A DNA stretch of 64,000 nt from Stakelama marina. Its GTDB lineage: Bacteria > Pseudomonadota > Alphaproteobacteria > Sphingomonadales > Sphingomonadaceae. The notes beneath the pieces are model-generated. The model searched no databases and was not told where the DNA came from. It saw only the letters and a list, made by a program, of their open reading frames with translations. The DNA lies in NCBI RefSeq assembly GCF_018122655.1, contig NZ_JAGRQC010000005.1:1-64000 (forward strand). The letters are read 5' to 3'. Positions 27,197-53,262 of the stretch are shown here, in pieces; within the stretch, counting starts at the first letter, position 1, and each line of letters begins with the position of its first letter. The translations under genes were made by a program, and so were the position numbers.

Positions 27197-27343
27197 TCCT
27201 CCCCGGCACGGGGAGGGGGGCCATGCGAAGCATGGTGGAGGGGGCTCAGCCGGTGGCGCTGTGGACTGAGGGGGCGCGTGTGTGGCGTCGCCCCTCCACC
27301 ACGCGCCTGCGGCGCGCGGTCCCCCTCCCCGTGCCGGGGAGGA
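27197..27343. repeat. Long palindromic intergenic element (147 bp)
   Basis: Terminal arms 27197-27219 and 27321-27343 are perfectly complementary over 23 bp, and each arm is itself a small hairpin. Inside lie further GC-rich inverted segments. The element sits between pntAB and pntB without ending the operon. Its right arm supplies GGGGAGGA, the ribosome site of pntB. A 27-nt stretch of the right end recurs exactly at 46501-46527 inside the GTA protease gene. Confidence 0.8.
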
Positions 27344-27347
27344 ATTG

Positions 27348-28760
27348 ATGCACGAAGCAGCACCAGTCAATCCGTGGGTGGCGCTGGCGTATCTGGTCGC
27401 CGGCGTCTGCTTCATCCTTGCGCTGCGCGGGCTGTCGAGCCCCGAGAGCAGCCGCCGCGGCAACCGTTTCGGCATGGTCGGCATGACGATCGCGATCGTC
27501 ACGACGCTCGTCACGCATGACATTGCGAGCCTGCCCGAGATCGCCGTCGCGGTGCTCATCGGCGGCGGTGTTGGCTTCGTCATAGCGCGGCGAATTGCGA
27601 TGACCGCGATGCCGCAACTTGTGGCGGCCTTTCACTCGCTGGTGGGTATGGCGGCGGTGTTGGTGGGGTGCGCGGCCTATTTTAACCCGGCGGCTTTCGG
27701 GATCGCCGAAGCAGGCGTCATCTTCCCCGTCAGCCGGATCGAGATGGGGCTGGGTGTCGCGATCGGCGCGATCACCTTTTCGGGCTCGGTAATCGCTTTT
27801 GCCAAGCTGAACGGGAATATGTCGGGCAAGCCGATCCTGCTGCCCGGCCGGCATTTCCTCAATCTCGGTACATTGGCGGTTATCCTGGGGCTGATCGCCT
27901 ATTTCACGCAGGACCAGGCGCCCTGGATATTCTGGACGGTGACGGTGCTGAGCTTCGTCATCGGCTTCCTGCTCATCATCCCGATCGGCGGGGCCGACAT
28001 GCCGGTCGTCGTGTCGATGCTCAACAGCTATTCGGGCTGGGCGGCGGCGGCGATGGGGTTCACGCTGCACAATACCGCGATGATCATCACCGGCGCGCTG
28101 GTCGGCTCCTCTGGCGCGATCCTGAGCTACATCATGTGCCGCGCGATGAACCGCAGCTTCATCAGCGTGATCGCCGGCGGCTTCGGTTCCGACAGCGGCG
28201 GCGGGGCCGAGGGGGCGGAGAAGATCGACCGGCCGTGGAAGCGCGGCAGTTCCGAGGACGCGGCGTTCCTGATGAAACAGGCCGAACAGGTCATCATCGT
28301 CCCCGGATACGGCATGGCGGTGGCGCAGGCGCAGCACGCGCTGCGCGAGATGGCCGACAAGCTGAAGGAGGAAGGCGTCACGGTGAAATACGCCATCCAC
28401 CCGGTCGCGGGGCGGATGCCGGGGCATATGAACGTGCTGCTCGCCGAGGCGAATGTGCCTTATGACGAGGTGTTCGAGCTCGAGGACATCAATTCGGAGT
28501 TCTCGCAGACCGATGTCGCCTTCGTGATCGGTGCGAACGACGTGACCAACCCGGCGGCAAAGACCGACAAGTCGTCGCCGATCTACGGCATGCCGGTGCT
28601 CGATGTCGGCAATGCCAAGACGGTGCTGTTTTCGAAACGGTCGATGGGCGGCGTGGGCTATGCCGGTGTCGACAACGAGGTCTTCTACCAGGACAACACA
28701 ATGATGCTGCTCGCCGATGCCAAGAAGATGGTCGAGGAGATCGTGAAGGCATTGGATTGA
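27348..28760 (+). CDS. pntB: NAD(P) transhydrogenase subunit beta
   Basis: The 470-residue protein has an N-terminal membrane domain of about nine helices and a C-terminal NADP(H)-binding domain III. Conserved features are GGADMPVVVSMLNSYSGWAA in the membrane part, and in domain III the motif IVPGYGMAVAQAQHALREM and GANDVTNPAA near the end. The start at 27348 is set by the family N-terminus (HEAAPVNPWVALAYL) and by the ribosome site contributed by the repeat just upstream. The in-frame extension to 27282 is repeat sequence. Confidence 0.95.
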   Translation: MHEAAPVNPWVALAYLVAGVCFILALRGLSSPESSRRGNRFGMVGMTIAIVTTLVTHDIASLPEIAVAVLIGGGVGFVIARRIAMTAMPQLVAAFHSLVGMAAVLVGCAAYFNPAAFGIAEAGVIFPVSRIEMGLGVAIGAITFSGSVIAFAKLNGNMSGKPILLPGRHFLNLGTLAVILGLIAYFTQDQAPWIFWTVTVLSFVIGFLLIIPIGGADMPVVVSMLNSYSGWAAAAMGFTLHNTAMIITGALVGSSGAILSYIMCRAMNRSFISVIAGGFGSDSGGGAEGAEKIDRPWKRGSSEDAAFLMKQAEQVIIVPGYGMAVAQAQHALREMADKLKEEGVTVKYAIHPVAGRMPGHMNVLLAEANVPYDEVFELEDINSEFSQTDVAFVIGANDVTNPAAKTDKSSPIYGMPVLDVGNAKTVLFSKRSMGGVGYAGVDNEVFYQDNTMMLLADAKKMVEEIVKALD

Positions 28761-46144: not shown

Positions 46145-46453
46145 ATGACCAACGAGCCGGTATTGGCGCAGTTGCTGGACCAGGCCGAGGACGAGGGCGC
46201 GGACCTGGTGACGCTGCGCGCGATCGTCGAGGAAGCGGGTGAACTGGGCGCGGCGCGGGCGCTGAAGCGGCTGGGGCTCGAGGATTCGGCGGCGGCGAAG
46301 GATATGGCCGAGCTGCGCGAGCTGCTGGGCGCGTGGCGCGATGCCAAGAAGTCGGTGGTGAAGGCGCTGATCGGCTGGATCGTGCGGATGGGGCTGGCAC
46401 TGGTGCTGGTCGGGCTGGCGGTGCGGCTGGGGTTCGGGGGATGGGTGAAGTGA
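46145..46453 (+). CDS. DUF6127 family GTA-associated protein
   Basis: The 102-residue protein starts at the ATG at 46145 after an ideal ribosome site (AAGGAGG). A helical charged region (VLAQLLDQAEDEGADLVTLR) is followed by the conserved ELRELLGAWRDAKKSVVKAL and a C-terminal transmembrane segment (MGLALVLVGLAVRLGFG). It is in the gp3.5 position of RcGTA-like clusters. A membrane anchor is unusual for a particle component, so it may act in assembly or release. Its stop overlaps the protease start as TGATG. Confidence 0.75.
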   Translation: MTNEPVLAQLLDQAEDEGADLVTLRAIVEEAGELGAARALKRLGLEDSAAAKDMAELRELLGAWRDAKKSVVKALIGWIVRMGLALVLVGLAVRLGFGGWVK

Positions 46454-46929
46454 TGGCTGAGCTAGTGTTTCGCGGCGGTCCCCCTCCACCGTCCTGCGGA
46501 CGGTCCCCCTCCCCGTGCCGGGGAGGATATGTGCGCTTTGCCGGTTATGCGGCGGTGTTCGATGCGCCGGATCGCGGCGGCGATGTGGTGCGGCGCGGGG
46601 CGTTTGCGGGGGCCGGGCGCGAGGTGCCGCTCTTGTGGCAGCATAAGGGCAAGCCGGTCGGGCGGATTTCCGTGCTGGGCGAGGATGCGCGCGGGCTGCG
46701 CGTGATCGGAGCGGTCGACGAGGCGAAGCTCGGGCGGCTGGTACAGCGCGGCGCGGTGACGGGGCTGAGCTTCGGATACCGCGCGCGGGCGATACGCCGA
46801 GGAACATACCGGGAACTAGTCGGGCTCGACCTGATCGAGGTGAGCCTGGTGGCGCAACCGATGCAGCCGCTGGCGCGGGTGCATGCGGTGGTCGGGGGTG
46901 GCGGGGCTGCCCTCTCCAACTTCGCCTAG
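46453..46929 (+). CDS. GTA prohead protease (gp4, HK97 type) with in-frame repeat insertion
   Basis: The 158-residue maturation protease cleaves the N-terminus of the capsid protein. The domain begins RFAGYAAVFDAPDRGGDVV. The catalytic His is in LLWQHKGKPVG and the Ser in TGLSFGYRARAIRR. Between the start (MAELVF) and the domain are about 20 residues (RGGPPPPSCGRSPSPCRGGY) encoded by a palindromic repeat whose core at 46501-46527 matches the end of the pntAB-pntB repeat exactly. The last ten or so residues are also repeat-derived. The catalytic region is intact, so the enzyme is probably functional. Confidence 0.88.
   Translation: MAELVFRGGPPPPSCGRSPSPCRGGYVRFAGYAAVFDAPDRGGDVVRRGAFAGAGREVPLLWQHKGKPVGRISVLGEDARGLRVIGAVDEAKLGRLVQRGAVTGLSFGYRARAIRRGTYRELVGLDLIEVSLVAQPMQPLARVHAVVGGGGAALSNFA
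46501..46527. repeat. Copy of the pntB palindromic repeat inside the protease gene
   Basis: These 27 bp are identical to 27317-27343, the terminal hairpin arm of the intergenic element before pntB. The copy is in frame and adds a Pro/Ser/Gly/Cys-rich segment to the protease N-terminus without a stop. Confidence 0.8.
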
Positions 46930-46976
46930 GCGGCTGCGCCGCCGAGGCTTCGTATCCCCTCCCGCAGGCGGGAGAG
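46910..46976. repeat. Palindromic repeat at the protease-capsid junction
   Basis: This GC-rich palindromic unit begins within the last codons of the protease gene. It includes a 7-bp hairpin at 46959-46965/46968-46974. It resembles the other sphingomonad-type repeats in the window. The capsid ribosome site (GGGAG) lies just after it. Confidence 0.55.
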
Positions 46977-46996
46977 GAAAAATGGGAGAATAATAT

Positions 46997-48055
46997 ATGA
47001 GCGATACGGATATGGGCGTGCTCGAGGCGAGCTTTGCCGAGGAAGAGGCGAAGGGCGTGCGCACGCCGCGGCCGATGCTGATGGGCGGCGGTGAGCCGGG
47101 CGGCGATGCGTTCGGTAGCTTCCTGCGATCGGGTGCGGGCGCGCTCGAGATGAAGGCGATGTCGGGGGCGAGCGGAGCCGAGGGCGGCTATGCCGTGCCG
47201 CAGGAGATCGATCAGGCGATCGATGCGACGCTGAAGAGCATCTCGCCCATTCGCAGTATCGCCAATGTCGTGCGCGTCGGATCGGCGGGATATCGCAAGC
47301 TGGTGGCGAGCGGAGGCACGCCGTCGGGCTGGACCGCCGAGACCGCCGGGCGGCCCGAGACTGATACGCCGGTCTTCAACGAAATCGCGCCGCCGATGGG
47401 CGAGCTCTATGCCAATCCGGCGGCGAGCCAGGCGATGCTCGACGATGCCGCGTTCGACGTCGAACAGTGGCTGGCGGGCGAGGTGGCGATGGAGTTCGCG
47501 CAGGCCGAGGGGGCGGCGTTCGTCAGCGGATCGGGCGTCAACCGGCCCAAGGGGTTCCTCCAGTCGCCGGTCGACAGCGCGGGCGATGCGACGCGCAGCT
47601 TCGGCACGCTGCAATATGTCGCGAGCGGTGCCGATGGCGATTTCGGCAGCGATCCCGACGCGGCGCTGATCGACCTCGTCCAGAGCCTGCGCAGCCCGTA
47701 CCGGCAGGGCGCGGCGTTCGTGATGAACTCTTCGGTGCTGGCACGCATCCGCAAGATGAAGACCGCGGACGGTGCGTTCCTGTGGCAGCCGAGCCTGGCG
47801 GCGGGGCAGCCGGCGACGCTGCTCGGCTATCCGGTGGTCGAGGCCGAGGACATGCCCGACATCGGCTCCGGATCGCTGTCGGTGGCGTTCGGTAACTTCA
47901 AAGCGGGCTATCTGATCGCCGAGCGCGGCGACACGCAGATCCTGCGCGACCCCTATTCGAACAAGCCGTTCGTCCATTTCTACGCGACCAAGCGCGTCGG
48001 CGGGATGGTGTCGAATTCGGAAGCGATCAAGCTGATGAAGTTCGCCGCGGCCTGA
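46997..48055 (+). CDS. GTA major capsid protein (gp5, HK97 fold)
   Basis: A 352-residue HK97-family capsid protein. The first 60 or so residues form the charged scaffold-like segment (SDTDMGVLEASFAEEEAKGV) expected to be removed by the gp4 protease. The mature domain begins near MSGASGAEGGYAVPQEIDQA and contains GTPSGWTAETAGRPETDTPV and EGAAFVSGSGVNRPKGFLQS. It ends with the P-domain and A-domain segments (LLGYPVVEAEDMPDIGSGSL, GDTQILRDPYSNKPFVHFYA). An intrinsic terminator follows 18 bp after its stop. Confidence 0.95.
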   Translation: MSDTDMGVLEASFAEEEAKGVRTPRPMLMGGGEPGGDAFGSFLRSGAGALEMKAMSGASGAEGGYAVPQEIDQAIDATLKSISPIRSIANVVRVGSAGYRKLVASGGTPSGWTAETAGRPETDTPVFNEIAPPMGELYANPAASQAMLDDAAFDVEQWLAGEVAMEFAQAEGAAFVSGSGVNRPKGFLQSPVDSAGDATRSFGTLQYVASGADGDFGSDPDAALIDLVQSLRSPYRQGAAFVMNSSVLARIRKMKTADGAFLWQPSLAAGQPATLLGYPVVEAEDMPDIGSGSLSVAFGNFKAGYLIAERGDTQILRDPYSNKPFVHFYATKRVGGMVSNSEAIKLMKFAAA

Positions 48056-48073
48056 TCGGTCGGGACGGATGTG

Positions 48074-48105
48074 GGGGCGTCGGAGCAGGTCCGGCGCCCC
48101 TTTTT
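48074..48105 (+). terminator. Rho-independent terminator after the capsid gene
   Basis: An 11-bp GC-rich stem (48074-48084 with 48090-48100, one G:U pair) closes a 5-nt loop and is followed by TTTTT at 48101-48105. It lies within the GTA cluster, just after the capsid gene and before the head-tail genes. It probably lowers expression of downstream tail genes relative to capsid. Confidence 0.8.
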
Positions 48106-48133
48106 GTTGCCGGATTGGCTGGGGGACAGGGCG

Positions 48134-48706
48134 ATGGGATTGAGACCGGCACGTGGCGGAGCGGTGGTGCTGGACGACGCCGATCGCGCGGCGGCACTGG
48201 GCGAATTACGCGAGTGGCTGCGCAGCAGCGGCGACAGCGACGCGGTGCTGGCGACGCTTGTCGAGACCGCGCTTGGATTGGGCGAGGCGTTTCTGGGGAT
48301 GGCGTTGATCGCGAGGGATTTTCGTGACGTGATCCCGGTGTCCGGGGCGTGGTCGGCGCTGGACATGATGCCGGTGACGACGATCGGCGAGGTGCAGGGC
48401 TTGCCGGCGGACGGCGCAGCCTTCGTGCTGACGGCGAGCAGCTATGCGATCGATATCGATGGCAACGGCATCGGCTGGGTGCGGGTGATGCAGCCCGGAT
48501 CGGCGGGGCGCGTGTCGGTTGCCTATCAAGCGGGCGTCGCAAGCGACTGGGCGAGCCTGCCGGAACCGGTGCGGCAGGGCGTGGTGATGCTGGCGGCGCA
48601 TTTGCGGCAAGCGGCCGACGGTGTGGGGGCAACGCCGCCGGCGGCGGTAACGGCGCTGTGGCGGCCATATCGGCGGATGCGGCTGAACCACGCGGTACGG
48701 GCATGA
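48134..48706 (+). CDS. GTA head-tail adaptor (gp6-like)
   Basis: The 190-residue protein starts at the ATG at 48134; an upstream in-frame GTG lies within the terminator. Its mainly helical N-terminal half (ALGELREWLRSSGDSDAVLA, VETALGLGEAFLGMALIARD) and the later WASLPEPVRQGVVMLAAHLR fit the gp6-type connector that docks under the portal. The middle AFVLTASSYAIDIDGNGIGW is the beta part of the fold. It ends in an ATGATG overlap with the next gene. Confidence 0.82.
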   Translation: MGLRPARGGAVVLDDADRAAALGELREWLRSSGDSDAVLATLVETALGLGEAFLGMALIARDFRDVIPVSGAWSALDMMPVTTIGEVQGLPADGAAFVLTASSYAIDIDGNGIGWVRVMQPGSAGRVSVAYQAGVASDWASLPEPVRQGVVMLAAHLRQAADGVGATPPAAVTALWRPYRRMRLNHAVRA

Positions 48707-48912
48707 TGGCGCGGCTGACAGGGCGCGGGCGCAAGGCCGGCGCGCGGGCGGTGGACAGAAAGGCGCGCGAGATCGCGGCGGCGGTTCGCGAGGCGGCGCC
48801 GGGCGTGCGCGTGGCGCGCGAGGGCGATGACGTGGTGCTGAGCGGGCGCGGGGTCTGGCGGCGGAGGCTGGGCGATCCTGCGCTGCGCTGGATCGGGGGG
48901 ATGTTGCGATGA
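48703..48912 (+). CDS. Short GTA protein in the gp7 (stopper) position
   Basis: A 69-residue basic protein (MARLTGRGRKAGARAVDRKA; then EAAPGVRVAREGDDVVLSGR). It overlaps the genes on both sides by 4 bp and so is certainly translated within the operon. RcGTA gp7, the head-tail stopper, is longer, at over 100 residues. This gene holds its place but shows no clear similarity. The VVLSGRG segment resembles short head-tail joining proteins of other phages. It may be a minimal stopper or a different adaptor. Confidence 0.7.
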   Translation: MMARLTGRGRKAGARAVDRKAREIAAAVREAAPGVRVAREGDDVVLSGRGVWRRRLGDPALRWIGGMLR

Positions 48913-49310
48913 GCGTACGGAGCCTTTTGCAGGCGGCGCTGGTGACGGCGCTGTCGGGCGCGCCCGAGGTGGGCGGCACGGTGACGGGCGTGTTCGACGC
49001 GCCGCCGCCGCGCGCCGCGTGGCCGTTCGTGCTGGTCGAGGAAACGGTGCTCGCCGATTGGGGCGCGAAGGACATTGCCGGGCGCGAGGGGCGGGTGCTG
49101 GTACTCGCCGAGGATTCGGGCGAACGACCGGTGCGGGTGCGCGCGCTGTGCGATGCCATTCGCGATGCGCTGAGCGACATGCCGCGCGACCTGGGCGAGG
49201 GCTGGCGGATCGTGACGGTGCAGCCGCTGAAAAGCCGGGTGGTGCGCGCCGGGCGCGAGCGCTGGACCGGATCGGTCGAGGCACGCGTGCGGCTGTTGCG
49301 GCTCAACTGA
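48909..49310 (+). CDS. GTA tail terminator (gp8, DUF3168)
   Basis: The 133-residue DUF3168 protein caps the tail tube at the head side. It is recognised by SVRSLLQAALVTALSGAPEV, PPPRAAWPFVLVEETVLADW, the central REGRVLVLAEDSGERPVRVR and SRVVRAGRERWTGSVEARVR. The start overlaps the previous stop (ATGA). The length is typical of the family. Confidence 0.88.
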   Translation: MSVRSLLQAALVTALSGAPEVGGTVTGVFDAPPPRAAWPFVLVEETVLADWGAKDIAGREGRVLVLAEDSGERPVRVRALCDAIRDALSDMPRDLGEGWRIVTVQPLKSRVVRAGRERWTGSVEARVRLLRLN

Positions 49311-49339
49311 GATTTTCAACACGAACGAGGAGATGCGCG

Positions 49340-49747
49340 ATGGCGGCGGAGAAGGGCAGCGCCTTTCTGCTGAAGGTGGGCGATGGCGGCGATCCGGTGG
49401 GCTTTGCCACCGTGGCGGGCCTACGGACCACGCAGATGTCGGTGGGCGGCGAGATGGTGGCGATCACGTCGAAGGATTCGGGCGGTTGGCGCGAATTGCT
49501 GTCGGGCGCGGGTGTGCGGTCGGTAAGCATATCGGGGGCAGGGGTGTTCACCGGATCTGCTGCCGAGGGCCGCGTGAAGGCGAATGCGCTGTCGGGCGTG
49601 CTCGACGATTACCGGCTGAGCTTCGAGAGCGGCGAGACGATGACGGGCAAGTTCCTTGTCACGCGGCTTGATTATGCCGGGGATTATAATGGCGAGCGCA
49701 ACTACACGCTGAGCCTGGAAAGCTCCGGACCGGTGGTGGCGGCGTGA
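49340..49747 (+). CDS. GTA major tail tube protein (gp9)
   Basis: This 135-residue tube subunit begins MAAEKGSAFLLKVGDGGDPV after AGGAGATGCGCG. The fold continues with the TVAGLRTTQMSVGGEMVAIT strand pair, DSGGWRELLSGAGVRSVSIS, and DYAGDYNGERNYTLSLESSG at the end. This is the phage major tail tube (TP901-1/HK97-type) family found in RcGTA. It overlaps the next gene as TGATG. Confidence 0.92.
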   Translation: MAAEKGSAFLLKVGDGGDPVGFATVAGLRTTQMSVGGEMVAITSKDSGGWRELLSGAGVRSVSISGAGVFTGSAAEGRVKANALSGVLDDYRLSFESGETMTGKFLVTRLDYAGDYNGERNYTLSLESSGPVVAA

Positions 49748-50115
49748 TGGGGGTGGCTGGTGCGACTGCCCGCCGTGCTGACCCTCTCCCCACCGGGGAG
49801 GGGGGATCTGGCGCAAACCCCGCGCGGGGCGAGGCGGCGATCCGCGTGGGCGGCGAGCAGGTCGTGCTGCGCCCGAGCTTTGCCGCGCTGGTCGCGGCGG
49901 AGGAGGAACTGGGGCCGCTGTTCGCACTCGTCGAGCGGGCGGCGGCGGGGCGGCTGGCGCTGAGCGAGATGGTGGCGCTGTTCTGGCACTGCCTGCGCGA
50001 ACGGCCCGAGGGGCTGAGCCGCGATGACTTCGGAGAAGCGGTTGCGGCGCAGGGTCTGGCGGCGGCGACGCCGGTGCTGAAGCTGCTGCTGGGGCAGATA
50101 TTGGCGGGGCGGTGA
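49747..50115 (+). CDS. GTA gp10 tail-assembly chaperone, with repeat-derived N-terminus
   Basis: A 122-residue protein. The conserved GTA gp10 domain starts near residue 32 (RVGGEQVVLRPSFAALVAAE) and ends with TPVLKLLLGQILAG. The preceding 30 residues (ADPLPTGEGGSGANPARGE) are encoded by a palindromic repeat (hairpin 49786-49800), in frame. The start is the ATG at 49747, overlapping the tail-tube stop. Such chaperones load the tape measure into the growing tube. The core is intact and probably functional. Confidence 0.8.
   Translation: MGVAGATARRADPLPTGEGGSGANPARGEAAIRVGGEQVVLRPSFAALVAAEEELGPLFALVERAAAGRLALSEMVALFWHCLRERPEGLSRDDFGEAVAAQGLAAATPVLKLLLGQILAGR
49786..49800. repeat. Palindromic repeat inside the gp10 coding region
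   Basis: A 6-bp GC stem (CTCCCC/GGGGAG) with a 3-nt loop, within a C-run/G-run typical of the intergenic repeats elsewhere in the window. Here it lies within codons 14-18 of the chaperone gene. Confidence 0.55.
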
Positions 50116-50312
50116 TGGACGCGCGGTTTGCTGACGCCGCCGCGCGGCTGGCCGGCGTCGCCGGGGTGATGTTCGGATGGTCGCCCGATGCCTTCTGGGC
50201 GGCGACGCCTGCCGAACTGGGCGCGCTGGTAGGCGCGCTGCGCGGCGATGCGGGCGAGGGGATCGACCGGGCGGCGATCGACCGATTGCAGGAGATGTTT
50301 CCCGATGGATGA
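50115..50312 (+). CDS. GTA tail-assembly chaperone gp10.1 (phage_TAC type)
   Basis: This 65-residue helical protein (DARFADAAARLAGVAGVMFG; FWAATPAELGALVGALRGDA) matches the small chaperone between gp10 and the tape measure of RcGTA clusters. The start may be the GTG at 50112 or the ATG at 50115; both overlap the gp10 stop. Its stop overlaps the tape-measure start by 8 bp. Confidence 0.8.
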   Translation: MDARFADAAARLAGVAGVMFGWSPDAFWAATPAELGALVGALRGDAGEGIDRAAIDRLQEMFPDG

Positions 50313-50871
50313 GGAAATCGAACGGCTGATCGTCAGCGTGCGGGCCGATACGCAAGGCTTTGCCCGCGACGTCGATACGATGCGGCAGTCGCTGGACGGG
50401 CCGTTCGCCGACGGGGTCGGACGAGCCGGGCGGTCGCTGGAAACCGCGCTGTCGCGCGCGCTGCGGACCGGCAAGCTGGGCTTTCAGGATCTCGAGCGCG
50501 TGGCGACGGGGGTGCTCGATACGATCGCGACGAGCGCGCTCAATTCGGGGCTCGATGCGCTGTTCGGCAGGTCGGGCGGGGGCGGCGGCATCCTGTCGTC
50601 GCTGCTGGGCGCGGTGGTGGGCGCACCCGGTCGCGCGACGGGCGGGCCGGTGTCGCCCGCGCGACCCTATTGGGTCGGTGAGAGCGGACCCGAGCTGTTC
50701 GTGCCGACGGCGAGCGGAAGCATCGCGCCGGCGCAGCAGGGCGGCGCGGCGCGCGACGTGCGGGTGGCGATCACGATCAACAGCGGTGGTGGCGAGACGT
50801 CCAAGGCGCTCGCCCGGTCCAGCCGGCAGGTGGCGCGCGCGGTGAAGGCGGCGCTGGCGGGGGTGGAGTAA
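50305..50871 (+). CDS. GTA tape measure protein (gp11, short)
   Basis: The 188-residue tape measure of a short-tailed siphovirus-like particle. Its N-terminus (EEIERLIVSVRADTQGFARD) and GFQDLERVATGVLDTIATSA helix are followed by Gly-rich and APGRATGGPVSPARPYWVGE segments and the conserved GESGPELFVPTASGSIAP. Such a short tape measure predicts a short tail, consistent with gene transfer agents. The ATG at 50305 lies within the end of the preceding gene. Confidence 0.85.
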   Translation: MDEEIERLIVSVRADTQGFARDVDTMRQSLDGPFADGVGRAGRSLETALSRALRTGKLGFQDLERVATGVLDTIATSALNSGLDALFGRSGGGGGILSSLLGAVVGAPGRATGGPVSPARPYWVGESGPELFVPTASGSIAPAQQGGAARDVRVAITINSGGGETSKALARSSRQVARAVKAALAGVE

Positions 50872-50926
50872 CGGCATTTTACGGGGGAGCGGGCGCGTTG
50901 GGGGCAGAGACTGCCCCTCTCCCTTG

Positions 50927-50948
50927 CCCTCTCCCCGAGGGGAGAGGG
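50927..50948. repeat. Perfect 10-bp palindrome before the gp12 gene
   Basis: Arms 50927-50936 and 50939-50948 are perfectly complementary around a 2-nt loop. The right arm (GGGGAGAGGG) lies 4 bp before the TTG start of gp12 and acts as its ribosome site, as seen with the repeat ahead of pntB. Confidence 0.7.
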
Positions 50949-50952
50949 AATC

Positions 50953-53262
50953 TTGGGCTATTCGCTGATGGCGGCGCGTGCCGGGCAGCGCGAGGGGGTG
51001 GTCTCTCGCTTCGACCCGGCCTTCTGGACGGTCAATTTCCCGCGGCCGATGATGGCGAGCGTCGTCACCACCGCGCCCGGCGGCTTGCGCGTCGATTGCA
51101 CCTTTTATCGCAAGGGCGATCTGGCGGGGCTGATCTGGGCGGCGGAAGATGCCGACGACCATCCGCTGCTCGCCTATGCCACCGACCGCGACTTTCGCGG
51201 ATGCCGACTGTCGTTTCGCTGGCGGTCGTCGGGGCTCGCGGCGCTCGACAGCGTGGCGGGGGCGGTGCTGACGATCGAGGGCCGCGATCAGGGCGGCGCG
51301 GCGCGATCCTGGTATGTGCGGCTGTGGAACTATGCGAGCGGGACGGGCGAGGATGCGGCGGTCGCCATCGACTTTGCGAATGTCGATGGCGGCTATCTGT
51401 TGCCGGGCGAGGCCGATCCGGTCTGGGCGGGCGATGTCGACCGGATGTTCGTGTCGCTGGTGTCGCCCGATTATGCCGAGGGCGATGAAAATGCGCTGGT
51501 GGCGCCGGTCGAGGCATGGGCCGAGCTGACGGAGATTGTCTGCGAGGGGCCGGGCGCGGTGTTGGCGATCGGCGATGGGGTGATGCCCGAACACGGGCTG
51601 TCGATCGCAACCGGTTATGACGACAGCTATCACATGACGCCCGAGCGGTTGCTGCGGAACGCGCTGCACCTCGGCTATCGCGGGTCGATCAACCACTATG
51701 TCGGGATGAGCCATTATTTCCGGCTCGAGGCGCTATATGGCGGCTATTATATAAGTCTGGCGGGTGGGGTGCTGAATGCGCCGTGCGCGGCGTGGCACCG
51801 CGATTTCGCCGAGCGCGCGGCGGCGCTGGGATACGGGCTGATCTGGTCGCTGTCCTACGAACTGCTCGACCAGCATTGCTGGAACGACTGGAAGCAGCGC
51901 GCGGCCGACGGATCGCCAGCACATACGGGGTGGCAGCCGCCATCGGCGTTGCTGTCGCCGGCGCATGACGGGGCGATGGGATATCTGCGCAGCGTGGCGC
52001 GCGCATTCGTCGCGATCGGGCGCGATGCGGGGCTGGCGGTGCGGTTCCAGGTCGGTGAGCCGTGGTGGTGGGTAATGGCCGACGGGCGGCCTTGCCTATA
52101 CGATGCAGCGGCCAAGGCGGCATTCGGTGGCGATCCGCCGGTCATCGCGAACGTGCGCGCGCCATTGTCGCAAGCGGAGACCGATCTGCTAGACCGGGCG
52201 GGCGAGCTGTTGGCGGCATCGACCGCCGCGCTGTGCGATGCGGTACGCGAAGAAGCATCGGGGGCGGAGGTGTTGCTGCTCGCCTATCTACCGACCGTGC
52301 TCGATGCGCAGGCACCTGAGCTGAAGCGCGCGAACCTGCCGCTGGGATGGCAGCGTCCCGCGTTCGATATCCTTCAGCTCGAAGATTACGACTGGGCGGC
52401 GACGGGCAATGGCGCCGCGACCGCACGCGGTGTCGCGGCGGCCGAGGCGCGGCTGGGCTATCCGCCGCAGGAACAGCATTATTTTTCAGGCTTCGTGCTG
52501 CGCGCAGAAGATGCCGGGCAGTGGCGCGCGATCGATGCCGCCGCCGAGGCGGGGCGGGCTCGCGGGGTTGCCGCGACCTTCGTCTGGGCGCTGCCGCAGG
52601 TGATGCGCGACGGATATCTGCATTTCGACGAGGAGACAGACGTGCAAGCGTTCGACGATGTGCTGTTTCCGCTGGCGCTGGGACGCGAGGCGGAAGTTGC
52701 TCCAGAGGTGTCCACGGCGATCGTGACGAGCGCGGGCGGGGCGGAGAAGCGCAATGCCGACTGGTCGTCGGCGCGGACGCGCTACGATGTCGGACCGGGG
52801 GTGCGGTCGGAAGAGGATATTGCCGCGCTGCTCGCCTTCTTCCGTGCGCGGCTTGGACCGGCGCGGGGGTTTCGATTGCGCGATCCGTTCGATTGGGCGT
52901 CGGGCGACGGCGATGCCGTGTCGCCGACCGACCAGCCGATCGGAACGGGCGACGGAGTTGCCGTGCGGTTCATGCTTGCCAAGCGCTATGGCGAAACAGT
53001 GCGGCGGATCACGCGGCCGGTGGCGGGCAGCGTCCGGATCGCGGTCGATGGTATCGAGACGCACGGCTTCACACTGGAAAGCGAAGGCCGGCTGCTGCTC
53101 GACGATCCGCCGGGCGAGGGGGCGGCGGTGACGGCGGGGTTCCGCTTCGACGTGCCGGTGCGCTTTGCCGAGGACAGCCTGTCGGTCAACCGCGCGACCT
53201 TCATGGCCGGAGCCGCGCCATCGGTCCCGCTGATCGAGATTCGCGAGGGCGGTGATGGCTGA
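50953..53262 (+). CDS. Enlarged GTA gp12: N-terminal glycosidase-like region fused to DUF2460
   Basis: A 769-residue protein. RcGTA gp12 is only the DUF2460 distal-tail domain (roughly 200 residues), which is here at the end: EKRNADWSSARTRYDVGPGV, FFRARLGPARGFRLRDPFDW and FMAGAAPSVPLIEI. Residues 1-200 form a beta-rich module (FDPAFWTVNFPRPMMASVVT; DFRGCRLSFRWRSSGLAALD). Residues 200-590 resemble a TIM-barrel glycoside-hydrolase-like domain (NHYVGMSHYFRLEALYGGYY, VRFQVGEPWWWV, FDILQLEDYDWAATG). A carbohydrate- or surface-binding role in host recognition is likely. The TTG start at 50953 has a repeat-supplied ribosome site; an ATG at 50968 is the alternative. Confidence 0.8.
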   Translation: MGYSLMAARAGQREGVVSRFDPAFWTVNFPRPMMASVVTTAPGGLRVDCTFYRKGDLAGLIWAAEDADDHPLLAYATDRDFRGCRLSFRWRSSGLAALDSVAGAVLTIEGRDQGGAARSWYVRLWNYASGTGEDAAVAIDFANVDGGYLLPGEADPVWAGDVDRMFVSLVSPDYAEGDENALVAPVEAWAELTEIVCEGPGAVLAIGDGVMPEHGLSIATGYDDSYHMTPERLLRNALHLGYRGSINHYVGMSHYFRLEALYGGYYISLAGGVLNAPCAAWHRDFAERAAALGYGLIWSLSYELLDQHCWNDWKQRAADGSPAHTGWQPPSALLSPAHDGAMGYLRSVARAFVAIGRDAGLAVRFQVGEPWWWVMADGRPCLYDAAAKAAFGGDPPVIANVRAPLSQAETDLLDRAGELLAASTAALCDAVREEASGAEVLLLAYLPTVLDAQAPELKRANLPLGWQRPAFDILQLEDYDWAATGNGAATARGVAAAEARLGYPPQEQHYFSGFVLRAEDAGQWRAIDAAAEAGRARGVAATFVWALPQVMRDGYLHFDEETDVQAFDDVLFPLALGREAEVAPEVSTAIVTSAGGAEKRNADWSSARTRYDVGPGVRSEEDIAALLAFFRARLGPARGFRLRDPFDWASGDGDAVSPTDQPIGTGDGVAVRFMLAKRYGETVRRITRPVAGSVRIAVDGIETHGFTLESEGRLLLDDPPGEGAAVTAGFRFDVPVRFAEDSLSVNRATFMAGAAPSVPLIEIREGGDG

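Follow-up and report, generated by a model that had tools for sequence, protein, structure and literature searches.

Genes and palindromic elements of the locus

The window, i.e. the whole 64,000-nucleotide stretch of Stakelama marina DNA that was analysed, harbours a head-tail cluster of the GTA type, made up of portal, DUF6127, HK97 protease, capsid, tail tube, GTA-gp10 and the gp12 region, and the ordered homologues of portal, protease, capsid, tail tube and GTA-gp10 make it RcGTA-like. The DUF6127 gene (PF19622; 46142-46453, plus strand), the upstream partner of the protease gene, ends with a TGA codon (46451-46453) that overlaps the protease start. Two overlapping starts in the protease frame are found there (46450-46455, plus strand), GTG at 46450 as part of GTGA and ATG at 46453 as part of TGATG. 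The HK97-type prohead protease (gp4; 46453-46929, plus strand) matches PF04586 over residues 28-145 and TIGR01543 over residues 29-146; the family models start only at residue 28 or 29. A possible alternative start, GTG, lies at 46531-46533 on the plus strand. The gp10 gene (GTA-gp10, PF11836; 49744-50115, plus strand) similarly has a GTGA/TGATG start that overlaps the stop codon of gp9.

Four palindromic elements are present between 46.47 and 50.95 kb, two of them in frame within genes. The first is a half element at the protease N-terminus (46477-46527, plus strand), which follows the starts at 46450/46453, precedes the conserved core at 46534 and keeps the frame. The second, a C-rich hairpin shorter than the protease half element, is found in frame at the N-terminus of gp10 (49780-49803, plus strand). 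Another element (46912-46978, no strand assigned) provides the protease gene with its final codons and with its TAG stop at 46927-46929; by eye, a relative's locus, L095, has a similar sequence. The fourth (50909-50948, no strand assigned) is intergenic and out of gene frame. It lies in the gp11-gp12 gap, whose 87 nt are a multiple of three, and its 3' arm, GGGGAGAGGG, adjoins the TTG start of gp12 at 50953.

A full-length palindromic element of 147 bp (27197-27343, no strand assigned) occupies the gap before a pntB-type gene, whose top NCBIfam match is NF006974 (E 3e-171, under the curated cut-off of that model). It folds as a single long palindrome (z -7.8 against shuffles), and its 3' arm, GGGGAGGA, stands 4 nt 5' of the ATG at 27348. 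The 27 bp at its right end (27317-27343) are identical, letter for letter, to 46501-46527 in the protease element; the match stops at those bounds, and the chance expectation for such 27-mers is about 4e-6. A search of Rfam over 26-54 kb returned one tRNA and one sub-threshold match, neither of them at the palindromic elements.

The preliminary description of this DNA had claimed the 27-bp identity with the end of the pntB element, a related palindrome in frame in gp10, an element over the protease end and another ahead of gp12, and all four placements hold. Its broader claim that the repeats invade the GTA genes in frame stands for the protease and gp10, but not for the gp12 element.

Absence of the insertions in relatives

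We assembled 130 protease-bearing loci, the window included, from several searches, one of which kept the best 80 of 170 while another gave loci for 30 of the 49 genomes that matched. Removal of identical cores left 102 distinct loci, and the DUF6127-protease spacer was measurable in 98; the four others are L103, which has a run of N, L109 and L121, where DUF6127 was not found, and a fourth that is probably L189. The commonest spacer, found in 40 of the 98 loci, is 5 nt long, as in ATGAGCGTG ahead of the core. Spacers are shorter than 17 nt in 68 loci, at least 17 nt long in 30 and at least 50 nt long in 23.

Stakelama flava (L042), the nearest relative found and the nearest row to the window on a tree of portal and capsid, reads ATGAGCGTG at this place and lacks the insertions of the protease N-terminus, gp10 and gp12. 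Relative to this species, the window has 75 additional nt (25 codons) in the protease and 60 (20 codons) in gp10, where the spacer is 98 nt long in the window and 38 nt in S. flava. As for gp12, its start overlaps in S. flava (5 nt, compared with 87 nt in the window). The earlier proposal that the protease palindrome is an in-frame insertion rather than ancestral protein sequence is thus borne out: the N-terminal segment is far from being present in all homologues.

Frame conservation at the DUF6127-protease junction

The length of the DUF6127-protease spacer ranges from -1 to 260 nt, yet it is 2 mod 3 in all 98 measured distinct loci. An ATG, GTG or TTG overlaps the DUF6127 stop in 95 of them; the three loci that have no such overlapping start count against a coupled start. 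Every one of the 30 spacers of at least 17 nt, which represent 16 distinct lengths, is in frame and open from the start that overlaps the DUF6127 stop. Moreover, 7 of 31 insert-bearing loci, a count that still includes duplicates, have no ATG, GTG or TTG behind the overlapping start and ahead of the core. Loci classified as coupled are in frame almost by definition, and the case rests on the unconditioned counts.

On the portal and capsid tree (91 rows, 19 carriers), the presence of an insert of at least 50 nt requires at least 15 changes. If every change were an independent gain with a one-third chance of being in frame, the frame lock would have a probability of about 7e-8. These 15 changes lump gains and losses, and independent gains may be fewer given that inserts merge at lower identity: the number of clusters formed by the 23 inserts of at least 50 nt falls from 17 at 70% identity to 9 at 60% and to 5 at 55%. 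Their stems are of several kinds, CCCCTCCCGC, CCCTCTCCCC, CCCCCGC and CCTCCCC, the last being that of the window. Four of the 23 (L089, L096, L107 and L117) have no stem of at least 6 bp, nor have five of the seven shorter inserts (at least 17 and less than 50 nt), and the stems of L088 and L093 were matched by 67 and 23 of 500 shuffles. Stop codons are somewhat scarce in insert DNA, with 101 of 138 frames open as against 85 for shuffles.

Pro, Gly, Ser and Arg abound in the tails that the inserts would encode, and hydrophobic residues make up 17% of the inserts as against 34% of the cores. In an AlphaFold2 model of the protease built with 39 sequences, the mean pLDDT is 49 for residues 1-10, 56 for residues 11-20 and 90-97 for residues 31-140. 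The half element falls in a stretch that the model leaves unstructured and of low confidence. The first strand begins at residue 27, right behind the insertion, and all 37 invariant columns of the protease alignment are at residue 29 or beyond. With the frame kept in every relative measured, the insert probably adds a floppy tail rather than breaking the protein.

Other junctions of the cluster

Long portal-DUF6127 spacers (remainders 2, 0 and 1 in 10, 9 and 9 cases) and long gp11-gp12 spacers (9, 13 and 14) are spread evenly over the three frames, and therefore the repeats are not by nature multiples of three in length. Together with the constant remainder at the DUF6127-protease junction, this suggests that the protease is started at an ATGA or GTGA codon that overlaps the stop of the gene before it, and that insertions there survive only when in frame. 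The protease-capsid spacers of all 96 distinct loci show an excess of remainder 2 (44, 22 and 30 for remainders 2, 0 and 1) despite few overlapping capsid starts. This excess counts against our interpretation. In some relatives, including L091, L096 and L100, a G+C-rich sequence followed by a T-run was seen by eye just 5' of the capsid start, resembling an intrinsic terminator within the GTA cluster.

Long gp9-gp10 spacers are found in 26 of 72 loci, 13 in frame and 13 not. Eleven of the 26 keep the overlapping start and are in frame, and of the 15 others 13 are out of frame; that these 13 have no coupled start is partly true by definition. They have their own ATG before the core, mostly with a purine-rich stretch ahead of it (by eye). 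The gp9-gp10 gap of L091, L094, L096, L100, L102, L108, L111, L113, L116 and L117 holds a similar insertion, about 200 nt of repeats with a new ATG; by eye, it replaces the gp10 start that overlaps elsewhere, and its carriers form a group to which S. faeni belongs.

Copies elsewhere in the genome and possible mobilisation

The preliminary description had proposed a whole-genome search for the repeat family and its size classes; the genome holds dispersed copies of 147, 130 and 132 bp as well as partial copies, few in number. The 132-bp (44-codon) element (C12:45620-45751 of the same genome) lies in frame in the gene of the dihydrolipoamide acyltransferase E2 (L124:1124-2500), in the linker between the lipoyl (residues 5-77) and E3-binding (175-199) domains. 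As this element is internal to the gene, a misplaced start cannot account for its in-frame insertion. With E2 loci excluded from the matching bank, the linker DNA of relatives matches other fetched DNA in 19 of 29 loci, compared with 6 of 29 for a catalytic-domain stretch of the same length.

A codon-usage gene caller put six of ten places in the genome between genes and four within called genes, namely E2, a C1 copy (L123) and the weak matches L135 and L136 (E 0.009 and 0.23). We read the ORF at the C1 copy as spurious antisense. By eye, the GGGGAGGA arm precedes a possible start with the spacing of a Shine-Dalgarno sequence both at 27336-27350 and in this C1:488868 copy. Paired palindromes separated by about 400 bp were also seen between called genes (C1:529306/529717 and C1:574537/574942).

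Mobilisation by a RAYT was rejected, as the genome has no match to the Y1 (REP-associated) transposase PF01797, which was found in 4 of 61 genomes of the genus. The 147-bp element has the terminal inverted repeats TCCTCCCC/GGGGAGGA, as expected of a MITE.

Enrichment of the repeats in the GTA cluster was not established, and we do not claim it. The genome itself has three hairpins in 15.6 kb (41.4 to 57 kb) and 11 in 680 kb elsewhere, a background that omits three of 37 stretches (L164 and L177, picked for known hits, and L175, a weak match). In relatives, there are 63 hairpins in 350 kb (20 GTA regions) and 35 in 630 kb (35 other stretches), two of these GTA regions, one holding 14 hairpins, having no background stretch. 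Among the 18 paired genomes, eight are up, six down and four level (one-sided p = 0.054). The first hairpin definition missed two of the GTA elements of the window, and the second, used for the counts in the genome itself, missed one.

Interpretation

We consider it likely that the elements are REP-like palindromic repeats, dispersed and belonging to several families, which insert around gene junctions and into flexible parts of proteins in sphingomonads. Translational coupling would start the protease at the ATGA or GTGA codon of the DUF6127-protease junction, and a repeat landing right behind that start would survive only when its length preserves the frame. Once retained, it would be translated as a disordered N-terminal tail, presumably a neutral ballast, while genes with a new start of their own, such as gp12 and part of the gp10 genes, would be free of the constraint.

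The repeats might instead be extragenic 5' leaders of genes whose starts are misplaced, with the 3' arm GGGGAGG serving as a portable Shine-Dalgarno sequence, for instance for the GTG at 46531. Indeed, GGGGAGGA, here from the half element, stands before that codon as it does before pntB, GGGGAGAGGG precedes the gp12 start, and the available text of PMC3733652 cautions that REPs placed at N-termini may in many cases be extragenic. The codon-usage caller also chooses starts 3' of the inserts, at 46531 for the protease and 49846 for gp10, which counts against a translated tail. In our view, the frame test outweighs these calls: leaders would leave the frame random, while it is kept without exception in the measured loci, and some insert-bearing loci offer no further start codon ahead of the core. 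The insertion inside E2 also argues against leaders, as does, by eye, the separate purine-rich stretch before the ATG that follows gp12 inserts in many loci. We therefore regard misplaced starts as rather unlikely and have demoted the portable Shine-Dalgarno sequence from a general rule to a secondary possibility. The GTG at 46531 could still give a second protease product of ancestral length.

That the N-terminal segment is ancestral and was lost in other lineages is extremely improbable. Similar tails do occur in some relatives (the cluster L067/L075/L080/L098), but most loci lack the segment, its carriers are scattered on the tree, and the sister rows L066 and L178 have different stems. Selection might also have retained the tails or RNA hairpins to tune coupled re-initiation, and hence the dose of the GTA protease. 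The location directly behind the coupled start and the invariant frame fit this idea. However, the family and length of the inserts are highly variable, most loci have short spacers, and the protease, gp10 and gp12 stretches have only a mild advantage in fold energy over their shuffles (z -1.9, -1.3 and -1.6), so we find such tuning very doubtful.

Survival of the repeats behind a coupled start, our preferred reading, has several implications. The frame relation to the upstream gene provides a natural test to tell translated from extragenic N-terminal repeats. This reading also suggests that the frame of a GTA protease is under selection in many species and that this protease relies on translational coupling. 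Disordered tails and linkers are thereby marked as sites where repeats turn into protein, and annotators should be aware that N-termini encoded by repeats can be genuine in sphingomonads. One may speculate further that unrelated repeats land at the junction time and again and are kept there because the tail or hairpin sets the protease dose or delays head maturation. They would then be domesticated regulators of gene-transfer particles, an idea that we deem unlikely.

Comparison with known systems

Palindromic repeats in frame within genes are already known as Rickettsia palindromic elements (RPEs) and intragenic REPs, sphingomonads included. The available text of PMC10969869 and PMC3733652 describes RPEs as dispersed palindromes of about 150 bp, in frame within unrelated genes. 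The likeness to Rickettsia drawn in the preliminary description is one of behaviour: in-frame insertions that relatives lack are apparent for the protease, gp10 and the E2 linker, but here the elements are GC-rich, belong to sphingomonads and include several families at one site, behind an overlapping start in a GTA cluster. According to the parts of the review PMC10969869 available to us, prokaryotic MITEs are short non-autonomous repeats able to fuse in frame with genes, a further likeness.

The GTAG/CGTC-tagged REPs also resemble our elements, being described in the available text of PMC3733652 as small palindromes that occur alone or in pairs close to gene ends and at times within ORFs. 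The same text reports intragenic REPs in, among others, S. alaskensis and E. lithoralis (as printed), and CGTC families seemingly without a dedicated transposase. In contrast, the full element of the window (TCCTCCCC...GGGGAGGA), the one inspected by eye for the tags, has neither GTAG nor CGTC at its start or end. A few search terms run over PMC9836097 gave no mention of palindromes. Among the non-subscription papers listed, judged by their titles and the beginnings of their abstracts, none concerned repeats inside GTA genes or a frame lock at coupled junctions. N-terminal cases were left as possibly extragenic in the available text of PMC3733652, whereas the frame test used here covers one such junction. 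The recurrent frame lock at a coupled GTA junction did not turn up in the literature searched.
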